From the NCBI RefSeq assembly GCF_900103715.1, contig NZ_FNHL01000001.1, positions 1,097,295-1,161,294 on the forward strand: 64,000 nt of DNA, written 5' to 3'. How positions within the stretch are numbered: the first letter of the stretch is position 1; every line of letters begins with the position of its first letter. This stretch comes from Halogranum gelatinilyticum. Its GTDB lineage: Archaea; Halobacteriota; Halobacteria; Halobacteriales; Haloferacaceae. This document shows positions 6,558 to 21,597 of this stretch, one piece after another. The notes beneath the pieces were generated by a model that ran no database searches, was not told where the DNA came from, and saw only the letters and a list, made by a program, of their open reading frames with translations. Position numbers and translations under genes: made by a program.

Positions 6558-6755
6558 TCAGGCGAATGCCTCGTACCCTGCGTCTTCGACGGCGGCCACG
6601 AGGACGGCGACGTCCGCGTCACCATCGATTGCTGCCGTCCCTGCGGACCGGTCGACGGATACCGTGGTCACACCGGGTACGTCCTCGGTGGCCTCGGCGA
6701 CGGTTCGCTTGCAGTGTCCACCGGATATGCCTTCGATGTTCAGGGTGGTCGACAT
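6558..6755 (-). CDS. HMA-domain copper-chaperone-like protein with degenerate metal site
   Basis: This 65-residue protein is a full-length heavy-metal-associated (ferredoxin-like) domain of the CopZ/Atx1 type and lies just upstream of the SHOCT-ATPase pair on the same strand. The usual loop is G-M-S-C-G-H-C. Here it reads G9-I10-S11-G12-G13-H14-C15, so the first metal-binding Cys is Gly while His14 and Cys15 remain. A single base change (TGT/TGC to GGT) would explain it. A one-Cys site should bind Cu(I) weakly unless it dimerises. The rest of the domain (VDRSAGTAAIDGDAD, EDAGYEA) is intact, so the gene does not look decayed. Confidence 0.88.
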   Translation of the reverse strand: MSTTLNIEGISGGHCKRTVAEATEDVPGVTTVSVDRSAGTAAIDGDADVAVLVAAVEDAGYEAFA

Positions 6756-7219
6756 ACAGGTAGAAGTACGTCGGGGAACACTTTGCCTATTTCCCCACCA
6801 TACCCAAAGCCGTAGAGTCGAGAGAAGAGCGGCACTACTGGAAAGTTATGTGCCCAATGACGGGGTAGGGCATCGGATTCAAGAGTGGTGTAGATGGCGA
6901 TACCAAAGTCTCTCCGTGAGAGTAGCGAGGTGAACCCGTTGCCGGTACTGCGCACCCGTCTCGTGTACTGATAGCAGTCGCTCGCTGTCGCGAGCGACAG
7001 AGAATCATGGACTCGCCGGGATTTGAACTACGTGAAGACGGTCCTGCTCGTCTCGCTACGCTCGACTGCGCGGGCTGCGACTTCTCTACTTCAAATCCCG
7101 CCTCGTGTCGGCGAATTCGCGACGCAGACTCCTCGCTATCGCTCACGGCTTCGCCGTTCGCTTTCGAGGTCGCTATGCGACCTCGCACCGCTCGTCGTGT
7201 AGCGTCGCGAAAATCGTGA
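6756..7219. other. 464-base gene-free region with tRNA 3'-end copy
   Basis: I see no credible gene here. The left part (6756-6975) is the upstream region of the HMA gene and looks unremarkable. A perfect 9-bp stem with a TGTC tetraloop lies at 6977-6998. From 7008 there is a copy of the 3' end of the neighbouring tRNA-Ala, followed by spacer and the inverted counterpart of its T arm (7090-7100). Then comes about 110 bases (7110-7219) that recur near 8310-8419. Short open frames in this stretch that read 'DSPGFE' are translations of tRNA sequence. Confidence 0.7.
7008..7110 (-). repeat. tRNA-Ala 3'-end copy with inverted T-arm repeat
   Basis: On the minus strand this element ends with the T arm and acceptor 3' strand of tRNA-Ala (complement of 7008-7028, identical to the tRNA at 7220). 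Some 60 bases upstream in that sense, at 7090-7100, is the inverted copy TTCAAATCCCG. The two T-arm halves can pair (GGGATTTGAA with TTCAAATCCC), giving a hairpin-like unit with a tRNA-like 3' end. A second unit of the same build lies at 8514-8596. It may be a remnant of element integration into a tRNA gene or a small RNA gene; the sequence alone does not decide. Confidence 0.6.
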
Positions 7220-17389: not shown

Positions 17390-17806
17390 TCAACAGCACC
17401 CACCGACGACAGCCTCGGGCTTCTCGCGTGCGACGACTGCACACTCCTCGACCCCACACTCGCCGCAGTCGACGACGCCGACCTGTGTCTCCAACTCGCG
17501 GAGCGTCGCCACGAACCGTCGGCCTGCGTCGGTGAGCGTGTACCGTGTCGACGGCGGCGTCGTCGCCTCGACGTGACGCGCGACGAAGCCCCGACAGCGG
17601 AGTTCTCGGAGTCGCGCGGAGAGGGTCTTCGCCGTGACGCCGTCGAGTTCGCGCTTCATCTCGTTGAAGCCCGCGTCGTGCTCGGCGAGCAGCCGGAGGA
17701 CGTGGAGTGCCCACTTGTTGCCGAGCGTGTCGTGGAGCGTGTGCCACACGCGCTGCCAGTCGTCTGCATCCGCTCCGTTGCTGCCCGGAGCCTCGTCGGC
17801 GGTCAT
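17390..17806 (-). CDS. HxlR-family transcriptional regulator with Cys-rich tail
   Basis: This 138-residue protein has the HxlR winged-helix domain at about residues 18-105 (LGNKWALHVLRLLAEHDAGFNEMKREL, then LSARLRELRCRGFV). After it comes a tail of about 30 residues with five of the six cysteines: Cys114, 117, 122, 137 and 138 (DCGEC, EECA and a terminal GGCC). Such a tail could bind metal or sense thiol stress. TTTACGA at about 17832-17838 is a fitting TATA box for a leaderless start. The gene is divergent from a 32-residue Cys-rich peptide, with 117 bases between the starts. Confidence 0.87.
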   Translation of the reverse strand: MTADEAPGSNGADADDWQRVWHTLHDTLGNKWALHVLRLLAEHDAGFNEMKRELDGVTAKTLSARLRELRCRGFVARHVEATTPPSTRYTLTDAGRRFVATLRELETQVGVVDCGECGVEECAVVAREKPEAVVGGCC

Positions 17807-17848
17807 TACCGACTGTAGGCACTCGTCGTTCGTAAACCCAGCCGGGTG

Positions 17849-17864
17849 GTTTCTCCGGAGATAC
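17849..17864. promoter_or_regulatory. Candidate operator palindrome between HxlR gene and Cys-rich peptide gene
   Basis: GTTTCTCCGGAGATAC is palindromic except for one mismatched pair, with a perfect 10-base core TCTCCGGAGA. It lies between the two divergent promoters, close to the regulator's own TATA box. A direct repeat GATAC (17860 and 17869) overlaps its right side. It is a good candidate binding site for the dimeric HxlR protein. Confidence 0.45.
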
Positions 17865-17923
17865 TACAGATACCTAAGCAAACTGCCAATTATAAGCGTT
17901 CTCCAGCCCACCCTCTGAGTGCA

Positions 17924-18022
17924 ATGTCCGAAGACTCCGACGCGGCCTGTTGCTGTACCGACTGTGGATGCGTCCAGTGCTCCTGCAGCCAGCCCACCAG
18001 AACTAGTTGTTGCTGCTGTTAG
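17924..18022 (+). CDS. Tiny Cys-rich, metallothionein-like peptide
   Basis: An ATG at 17924 opens a 32-codon frame ending in TAG. It reads MSEDSDAACCCTDCGCVQC, then SCSQPTRTSCCCC. Eleven of 32 residues are Cys, in CCC, CxxC, CxC and terminal CCCC groups, as in metallothioneins. The first residues (SEDSD) are acidic, as in haloarchaeal proteins. A clear TATA box (ATTATAAG, 17888-17895) lies about 29 bases upstream of the ATG, so the transcript would be nearly leaderless. Its TAG shares four bases with the stop of the convergent gene. Metal or thiol binding is inferred from composition only; I know no named family for it. Confidence 0.7.
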   Translation: MSEDSDAACCCTDCGCVQCSCSQPTRTSCCCC

Positions 18023-18756
18023 CGGTCGTCAGCGTCCTCGTCGAGGTCGTCCTTGATGGACTGTAACTCGGCCTCGACGTTGACTTCCGTCTCGTCGCTG
18101 TCGTCCTCGCTCGCGGGCGACGTGGGCGAGTCGTCGACCTCGTGGCCGTCGTCCGACTCCTCGTCGACGGCGATCTCGACGGGACCGCTGCGGCTCCGGC
18201 CACCGTCACCCTGTGAGCGTCGACGCGACGCCGACTGTGCGTAATCTCGCGAACGGTCGCGGGAGCGAGACCGACTCCGCGAACGCGAGCGTCCCGACCG
18301 ACTCTCCTCGATACGACGCTCGATCTCGTCGGTCAGGCTGCGGGCGTCCTCGACGATGTCGCGGGACTCGGGGTCGCTCGGGAGGTCGGCCTCAGAGAGT
18401 GCCCGCTGGAGTTCCGAGAGCGCGCGGTCGAGACCGTCGACGGCGTCGTCTCGAACGTTGCGGACGCCGCGAACCCCGCGACGGGCCGTGTTCGTCGCCT
18501 CGCGCGCGCTGCCCTCCGGGTTGGCGAGCCGCAGCAGTTTCTGGAGCAGTTCGAGCGCGCGGATGTTGGCCTCCAGAATCGAGATGACGGTCGGAATGGT
18601 GTACTCGTCGGTGAAGCGGAGGATCTCACCCGGACTCGGTGGACGGAGCTGTCGGCGGGCCTCGGGCCGTTGCTGGAGTTCCTCGCGGAGGTCCGAGAGG
18701 GTGTATTCGAGGTCGTCCAAGAGGTCGACGAGGTCGTCGTCGCGGCGGGAGCTCAT
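18019..18756 (-). CDS. Haloarchaeal protein with helical core, Ser-Arg repeat and acidic tail
   Basis: This 245-residue protein has a helical N-terminal two-thirds (about 1-150; DDDLVDLLDDLEYTLSDLREEL and a conserved EILRFTDEYTIPTVISILEANIRALELLQ). Then comes an Arg/Ser tract of about ten SR or RS steps (about 152-172) and an acidic tail rich in Asp, Glu and Ser. The central phrase about an entry helix and ILEANIRALELLQ marks a family seen in haloarchaea, but I cannot give a function. The strongly basic SR tract is unusual for such an acidic proteome and may be a nucleic-acid or phosphorylation site. Confidence 0.78.
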   Translation of the reverse strand: MSSRRDDDLVDLLDDLEYTLSDLREELQQRPEARRQLRPPSPGEILRFTDEYTIPTVISILEANIRALELLQKLLRLANPEGSAREATNTARRGVRGVRNVRDDAVDGLDRALSELQRALSEADLPSDPESRDIVEDARSLTDEIERRIEESRSGRSRSRSRSRSRDRSRDYAQSASRRRSQGDGGRSRSGPVEIAVDEESDDGHEVDDSPTSPASEDDSDETEVNVEAELQSIKDDLDEDADDR

Positions 18757-21003: not shown

Positions 21004-21552
21004 TCAGTTGGTCGCCGAATCCAACACGAGCGTGTCGTCTTCGAGATAGTGCTCGATGTGGTGGGCGTTCTCTTCGATCTCGATGAGCTGCTGGCGGAGC
21101 ATCTCGGCCGTCGCGTGGTCGCCGAGGTTCGTCGTCAGATCGACGTGGCCGCGGACCTGTTCGATGATGTCGCCGTACATCTCCATGTCGTTCTCGAGTG
21201 ACGTCCGGATGTCGTAGACATCGTCGTCCTCGGGGGCGACGGGTGCGGCTTCTTCGAGGTTCTTGCCGCCCGCGATGGGGACGCCACCGAGTGCCTGGAC
21301 GCGCTCGGCGAGTTCGTCGGCCGCTTCTTCGGCCGCCCCGGCAGCCTCGCCGAGGAAGACGTGGATGTCGCGGAACTCCGCACCCTCGACGTTCCAGTGG
21401 TGCTTCTTCAGCTGGTGGTAGAGGACGTAGGTCGCCGCGAGGTCCGACTGGAGCGCGTCGACGATCTGCTCGACCTTCTCCTGCTCGAGTCGGAGTGCGG
21501 GACTCGCTTCGACGCTCCCTGCCTGTCGCTGGACGTTCTTCTGGGTACTCAT
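21004..21552 (-). CDS. dpsA: DNA-protecting ferritin DpsA
   Basis: This 182-residue Dps protein forms dodecamers that oxidise and store iron and protect DNA from oxidative damage. The start MSTQKNV and the whole body match halobacterial DpsA closely. The ferroxidase-site helix LYHQLKKHHWNVEGAEFRDIHVFLGEAA is intact, as is the C-terminal AHHIEHYLEDDTLV. I chose the ATG at 21552. A TATA-like ATTTATGTG on the minus strand (about 21579-21587) gives a very short leader. An imperfect inverted repeat at 21598-21618 sits just upstream of it. Confidence 0.97.
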   Translation of the reverse strand: MSTQKNVQRQAGSVEASPALRLEQEKVEQIVDALQSDLAATYVLYHQLKKHHWNVEGAEFRDIHVFLGEAAGAAEEAADELAERVQALGGVPIAGGKNLEEAAPVAPEDDDVYDIRTSLENDMEMYGDIIEQVRGHVDLTTNLGDHATAEMLRQQLIEIEENAHHIEHYLEDDTLVLDSATN

Positions 21553-21597
21553 TGCAGTCGGTAATTGGCGCGCGAGCCACATAAATCTTCACTCGAA

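Follow-up and report, generated by a model that had tools for sequence, protein, structure and literature searches.

Introduction

Regulators of the HxlR/DUF24 family (HypR, YodB, QsrR, CatR, HxlR) are winged-helix thiol sensors in which electrophiles are sensed by an N-terminal Cys, as is the case of Cys11 of Bacillus subtilis HxlR (PMC7835342). The regulator described here, encoded by Halogranum gelatinilyticum within a 64,000-nucleotide stretch of DNA that was analysed as a whole (the window), belongs to the same winged-helix family and Cys-based signalling is expected of it. It differs from the described members in having, instead of the N-terminal sensor Cys, a Cys in the predicted recognition helix and a probably disordered tail that in proteins of this type holds three to six Cys, and in that its partner is a Cys-rich micropeptide and not an oxidoreductase of the known kinds.

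In haloarchaea, OxsR of Haloferax volcanii is a single-domain winged helix-turn-helix (wHTH) thiol-stress activator that acts from a site located approximately 50-75 bp before the start codon (PMC9426492). In contrast to the protein of the window, OxsR belongs to the TrmB family, has a single N-terminal Cys, controls a global regulon and lacks a Cys-peptide partner.

Some members of the HxlR family studied here are found inside ars operons (ArsR, ArsD, ArsA, Acr3), and ArsD has vicinal Cys pairs, as do the peptides reported below. However, the sensor candidate is an HxlR and not an ArsR/SmtB protein, and the window module contains no efflux or reductase gene. An ars operon with a Rdx-type HxlR also encodes HcsL (NF041416) and HcsS (NF041415), haloarchaeal halo-CC-star proteins with a Cys-Cys end; unlike the micropeptides neither of them is Cys-rich, HcsL being a YlbF-family protein and HcsS looking like a shorter relative.

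Metallothioneins (the bacterial SmtA type and others) share with the window peptide a very small size, a high Cys content and CC/CxC/CCC clusters, and with the peptides in general a proportion of Cys that reaches up to one third and a gene placed beside a Cys-bearing regulator. The peptides differ from metallothioneins in that they match no described Pfam or NCBIfam family and in that their Cys spacing is not fixed. In a literature search the phrase "archaeal metallothionein" was not found, and nothing relevant was retrieved on archaeal metallothionein or on HcsL/HcsS. Based on the comparisons presented here, we consider it probable that the regulator and the peptide constitute a dedicated stress switch, in which HxlR would sense thiophilic metal(loid)s or thiol stress and activate a metallothionein-like peptide.

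The HxlR Regulator and Its Cysteines

The features of the locus, in window coordinates, are the following:

17390..17806, minus strand: HxlR-family winged-helix regulator (138 aa; Pfam HxlR match)
17832..17837, minus strand: TATA-like element, putative HxlR promoter (GTTTAC on the minus strand; conserved column)
17848..17865, no strand: operator-like palindrome GGTTTCTCCGGAGATACT, putative HxlR-binding site (consensus GGTTTC-N6-GAAACC)
17882..17885, plus strand: ACTG, part of a conserved ACTGA box (at +25..+29 relative to the operator centre, immediately before the partner TATA)
17890..17895, plus strand: TATA box TTATAA of the peptide gene (TATA column block +34..+38 in both partner groups)
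17924..18022, plus strand: Cys-rich micropeptide gene, by ORF translation (32 codons, 11 Cys, ends CCCC; family in 25 loci)

The regulator was assigned to PF01638 (HxlR) by a Pfam search (64 bits vs a cut-off of 20.8, E=1e-17), and a PDB search identified YodB (2e-14), QsrR and HxlR as relatives; its nearest named relative, with 64-65% identity, is from Halogranum rubrum. A first-pass annotation of this DNA had reported five Cys in the last 25 residues of the regulator and, 117 bp away on the other strand, a 32-codon ORF with 11 Cys, an acidic start and a TATA box. These observations were confirmed: the tail reads CGECGVEECAVVAREKPEAVVGGCC, the divergent ORF, whose start codon lies 117 bp from that of HxlR, encodes MSEDSDAACCCTDCGCVQCSCSQPTRTSCCCC (32 aa, acidic start), and the TATA box is TTATAA at 17890-17895. 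The operator-like palindrome at 17848-17865, the recognition-helix Cys and the missing N-terminal sensor Cys are additions to that reading.

In the AlphaFold2 model of the window HxlR the wHTH is confident and residues 123-138 have a pLDDT below 50, the Cys-rich C-terminal tail being predicted as disordered. The canonical N-terminal sensor Cys of HxlR/DUF24 proteins is not present in the window HxlR, the first Cys of which is Cys71, in an ELRC motif at the end of the predicted recognition helix. Comparison with relatives indicated that C71 and C122 are invariant; an equivalent of Cys71 occurs in 45 of the 46 Cys-tailed relatives (the exception is L160) and is absent from ten tail-less paralogues, while the tails of the Cys-tailed group contain 3-6 Cys. 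Only 5/46 relatives have any Cys N-terminal of this core Cys, at scattered positions. Since the family fold is kept and the N-terminal Cys is missing, with Cys71 and the tail present instead, the candidate sensing residues appear to have been relocated.

The Cysteine-Rich Micropeptide

The peptides vary considerably in size, from 27 to 67 aa with 8-17 Cys in the 23 loci found by script, and those of L158 and L160, which first looked partner-less and were recognised by eye, are longer (78 and 89 aa); none of the peptides has fewer than 8 Cys. Most of them open with a few acidic residues and then CC, the middle part being hypervariable. The expectation of a conserved pair with kept Cys positions held in part, as the pair, the Cys clusters and a terminal Cys (21 of 25 peptides) are maintained, but there is no column-by-column conservation. 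Between the window and the H. rubrum peptides 7 of 15 aligned Cys positions are replaced, and this fast divergence counts against the stress-switch reading.

Close relative pairs gave a pooled dS of 0.59 and dN of 0.21 (dN/dS 0.36), and among their Cys codons 35 were identical, 11 silently changed and 5 replaced; in this calculation the GTG at +64 was taken as the peptide start of L029/L072 and an upstream ATG inside the TATA box was discarded. Judging from these substitutions, the peptide family evolves as coding sequence, under purifying selection in relatives. The frequency of such ORFs was evaluated upstream of 296 predicted genes from 21 loci (ORF divergent, starting with ATG or GTG 60-170 bp upstream, and containing ≥6 Cys and ≥13% Cys): they were detected at six genes, all six of them HxlR of this family, other family members being missed because the gene caller had set their starts too far upstream.

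The window peptide had no match in Pfam at E up to 0.1 and none in NCBIfam, HMM searches being weak at such length, and two relative peptides had no NCBIfam match either; none of the three matched NF041415/NF041416. By these searches, the micropeptides are an uncatalogued family without a Pfam or NCBIfam model. A DUF7547 gene (18019-18756, minus strand) is convergent with the window peptide gene, the two ends overlapping by 4 bp, and is also a neighbour at nine further peptide-type loci.

Pairing of Regulator and Partner in Haloarchaea

Searches of whole genomes and named contigs, after removal by HxlR sequence of duplicate loci (same organism, different searches), yielded 56 distinct HxlR relatives, all from Halobacteriales; among 295 sampled genomes of the phylum, no family member was detected outside this order. 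The tail contains at least three Cys in 46 of them and none in 10. The partner of the Cys-tailed HxlR is a Cys-peptide in 25/46 cases, a DUF2703 protein in 15/46 and Rdx in 6/46, the first two encoded divergently and Rdx in the orientation of HxlR, ~0.66 kb upstream of it. Conservation of the short frame beside HxlR in relatives had been set beforehand as a test, and it was found at these 25 Cys-tailed loci, with a thiol-redox gene in the other 21. One of the three partners thus accompanies 46/46 Cys-tailed HxlR vs 0/10 tail-less paralogues (Fisher P=3e-11, a value that only ranks the effect because related sequences are not independent).

The two alternative partners belong to CxxC thioredoxin-fold families; we take DUF2703 to be a thioredoxin-fold protein with a CxxC motif and Rdx to be SelT/W/H-like. 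Partner types are clustered on the tree (7 changes vs a shuffled mean of 28) and the module is present in several haloarchaeal families. Based on these counts, the pairing of Cys-tailed HxlR and micropeptide is conserved and not the result of chance. Besides HxlR, the only genes that peptide loci have in common are lineage-specific neighbours (CDF/HIT or DUF7547). A DUF2703 gene was not found in the window genome by a search in which the positive controls gave no signal either.

Two candidates were discarded during this survey. A 33-residue Cys-rich ORF (MEGVCGQLS...) upstream of HxlR in ars loci, considered as a peptide, proved to belong, in frame, to the C-terminal end of a Rdx protein of 101 aa, and F11, an ORF antisense to the Rdx gene, was judged an artefact.

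The Control Region Between the Genes

The 18-bp palindrome occupies the equivalent position in most loci of the peptide and DUF2703 types, and the promoters of both groups have a common layout with the palindrome centre at 0, ACTGA at +25, TATA at +34 and the start codon at about +67. A version of the operator with a 4-base spacer was wrong, the spacer being of 6 bases. In 18 of 20 peptide-group loci the peptide start lies at 64-67 from the palindrome centre (a count that uses the corrected L029/L072 starts and a corrected L032 site), the exceptions being L033 and L039, which contain insertions. On the other side, HxlR is separated from the palindrome by 48-51 bp in the peptide group, as against 50-84 bp where the partner is DUF2703. 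As the partner spacing is fixed and equal in both groups whereas the HxlR distance is variable, the partner gene is likely the main target. On the HxlR side, TTTA at -24..-21 from the operator centre is conserved in the peptide group (column information 1.2-1.8 bits), and on the peptide side a predicted transcription start at about 17918 is compatible with the TATA position. The ACTGA box, situated 5-9 bp before the partner TATA, could be an unusual BRE/BRE variant or the site of a second regulator.

The window palindrome is imperfect, with 10/12 consensus bases, which counts against the stress-switch reading; among random 200-bp sequences matched for composition, <1% attained this number of matching bases. 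It also counts against this reading that no palindrome, or only a weak one, directly precedes HxlR in the Rdx group or in L060, L079, L152, L153, L158, L159 and L160; upstream of the Rdx gene, the ars loci have a related palindrome, GGTTTCAGCGCTGAAAGG. A genome-wide operator search that allowed up to one mismatch gave 49 strand-hits vs 16 for a control pattern, and besides the window site no exact match lay convincingly before a relevant gene, so that very few target genes would be expected for the circuit; this is a further point against the stress switch. Different palindromes (GGTATCGGAACTGATACC, GGTACCTATCGAGGTACC) are present upstream of tail-less HxlR paralogues, in L024 and L027, at about equal distance from HxlR, which suggests a separate operator for each HxlR clade.

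The palindrome centre is 67 bp upstream of the peptide start and outside the TATA/BRE region, a position that makes activation likely. In Haloferax, a motif at -50..-74 of the target is required for activation by OxsR, and sites located upstream of the TATA box are associated with activation and those downstream with repression (PMC9426492). The window palindrome spans -58..-76 and, by comparison with OxsR, activation is favoured.

Conversely, HxlR may act as a repressor that is released upon metal or thiol attack, in which case both genes would be derepressed and the biology would otherwise be that of the stress switch. The palindrome, whose centre is ~22 bp from the TATA of HxlR, adjoins this element, as would fit autorepression of HxlR, and ArsR-type metal sensors are repressors released by metal. 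On the other hand, the palindrome lies ~25 bp outside the peptide TATA and at a fixed distance from the partner start in two groups, an activator position by the OxsR precedent. In addition, B. subtilis HxlR itself is a positive regulator (PMC7835342; title of a reference in PMC6943732). Repression is a credible possibility, although we consider it somewhat doubtful.

Arsenic, Metal and Thiol Context

Five of the six Rdx-type members have enough flanking sequence, and they are located in arsD-arsA-acr3 clusters, some of which include in addition ArsC (LMW-ArsC) and ArsM. In the annotation of Halorubrum lacusprofundi pHLAC01 the gene order is acr3, arsR, arsD, arsA, hcsL, hcsS, M20 hydrolase, Rdx and HxlR. 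Among DUF2703-type loci, L065 (Natrinema mahii) has Acr3 and ArsC alongside and L079 has ArsC. At all seven Haladaptataceae peptide loci a cation-diffusion-facilitator (CDF) efflux gene (PF01545) is placed behind the peptide in the same direction, with 52-77 bp between the peptide stop and the start of the CDF match; this synteny could have been inherited once. An ars cluster of Rhodococcus aetherivorans includes a DUF2703 gene, whose induction by arsenate is under 10-fold (PMC6514093). The ars neighbours, the Rhodococcus DUF2703 gene and the CDF genes point to thiophilic metal(loid)s, arsenite in the first place.

The first-pass annotation had proposed a self-contained metal or thiol response. 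A response of this kind is supported by the shared operator/promoter layout, the ars contexts and the CDF gene behind the peptide. As to its being self-contained, this agrees with the window copy, beside which no ars efflux, reductase or methylase gene nor any efflux gene was found, only the convergent DUF7547 gene, but not with relatives in which the regulator sits in bigger arsenic operons. The lack of such genes beside the window copy counts against the stress switch, as does the negative DUF2703 search in the window genome.

Other observations were made in these neighbourhoods. The HcsL and HcsS genes of pHLAC01 (L162:4365-4912) lie between arsA and the Rdx/HxlR genes, and from this location HcsL/HcsS are likely to have a role in arsenic handling. 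Between Rdx and HxlR in L038 (~6590-6860) there is an 89-aa ORF with a zinc-finger-like CEHCGCP motif, kept in 6/6 Rdx-type loci and with no match in Pfam or NCBIfam. L161 contains an HxlR-DUF2703 pair near CDF and HIT genes, which are the neighbours of the Haladaptataceae peptide type, so that the partner differs and the neighbourhood is similar. A ferritin-like (Dps-type) gene is present in the window at 21004-21582 (minus strand), about 3 kb from the module, and a relative of it (family F32) is found near the L029 module.

It may also be considered that redox state and not metal is sensed, the HxlR Cys responding to disulfide, hypochlorite or electrophile stress and the peptide serving as a sacrificial thiol or as the substrate of a disulfide relay. 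Such stress is sensed by the HxlR/DUF24 regulators HypR, YodB and CatR (PMC6943732), the haloarchaeal OxsR is a thiol-redox activator (PMC9426492), and the CxxC thioredoxin-fold nature of DUF2703 and Rdx would agree with this role. We nevertheless regard it as unlikely, as ars and CDF neighbours recur, the canonical N-terminal Cys is missing and clustered Cys would be better suited to metal(loid) ligation.

Proposed Mechanism

The pairing, the coding selection, the shared operator/promoter layout and the ars/CDF linkage in relatives were established by sequence comparison. In the stress switch that we favour, thiophilic metal(loid)s would react with or bridge the HxlR Cys, namely that of the recognition helix and the three to six of the tail; arsenite is the best guess as inducer, Zn/Cd/Cu-type ions or thiol oxidants being possible. 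Cys modification or metal binding would alter the hold of HxlR on its putative site GGTTTC-N6-GAAACC and the peptide promoter would be switched on. The peptide, about one third Cys, may then act as a metallothionein-like chelator or thiol buffer; at related loci a DUF2703 or Rdx thiol-redox protein would take its place under the same regulator and promoter.

A different function for the peptide would be that of a partner of the sensor (metal delivery, mixed disulfides or metal bridges with the HxlR tail) or of a regulatory leader (translation/Cys supply). The tail and the peptide are both Cys-rich, a thiol partner accompanies the tail in every case, and a CDF gene follows the peptide in seven loci. 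Yet the peptide is replaced by folded redox domains (DUF2703, Rdx), in the case of DUF2703 under the same promoter layout, and neither the window nor most other loci have a same-direction gene downstream, which makes both functions quite improbable. With their Cys-rich core and, in some members, a GG-like stretch, peptides such as MAEQHCCEADAESLADLFETTVEVPVGMVLAGGCCCCRCC resemble the leader and core of a RiPP-type precursor of an enzyme-modified natural product, but this origin is very improbable, since no modification or maturation enzyme was seen in, or was common to, the neighbourhoods of the peptide loci. Finally, a chance intergenic ORF, as might be suspected from a short, fast-evolving sequence without a family match, is hardly conceivable for the window and is refuted for the family as a whole by the control genes without such an ORF, the fixed position and promoter and the coding-type substitutions.

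Returning to the stress switch, a more detailed proposal can be made in which a subfamily of HxlR became a sensor of arsenite or thiophilic metals by dropping the N-terminal Cys and gaining the recognition-helix Cys and the Cys tail, and controls uncatalogued, hypervariable metallothionein-like micropeptides that are interchangeable with DUF2703 and Rdx. We advance this combined proposal tentatively, its chances being in our judgement slightly less than even.

Concluding Remarks

The HxlR family is known, and what is most likely new is the relocation of the sensor Cys together with the uncatalogued micropeptide family. Haloarchaea thereby gain a candidate family of metallothionein-like peptides and a candidate HxlR-type metal(loid) sensor, and their strict co-occurrence and fixed promoter geometry make both candidates directly testable in a genetically tractable group. 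A role for archaeal Rdx proteins and for DUF2703 is likewise suggested by the association, which in addition exposes a class of 30-60-codon genes for which no family model exists. A conserved switch in which a disordered Cys peptide and folded redox domains alternate as effector would represent an uncommon evolutionary case. Altogether, the module has the appearance of a small circuit, so far overlooked, that would defend the cell against arsenic or similar poisons that attack thiols.
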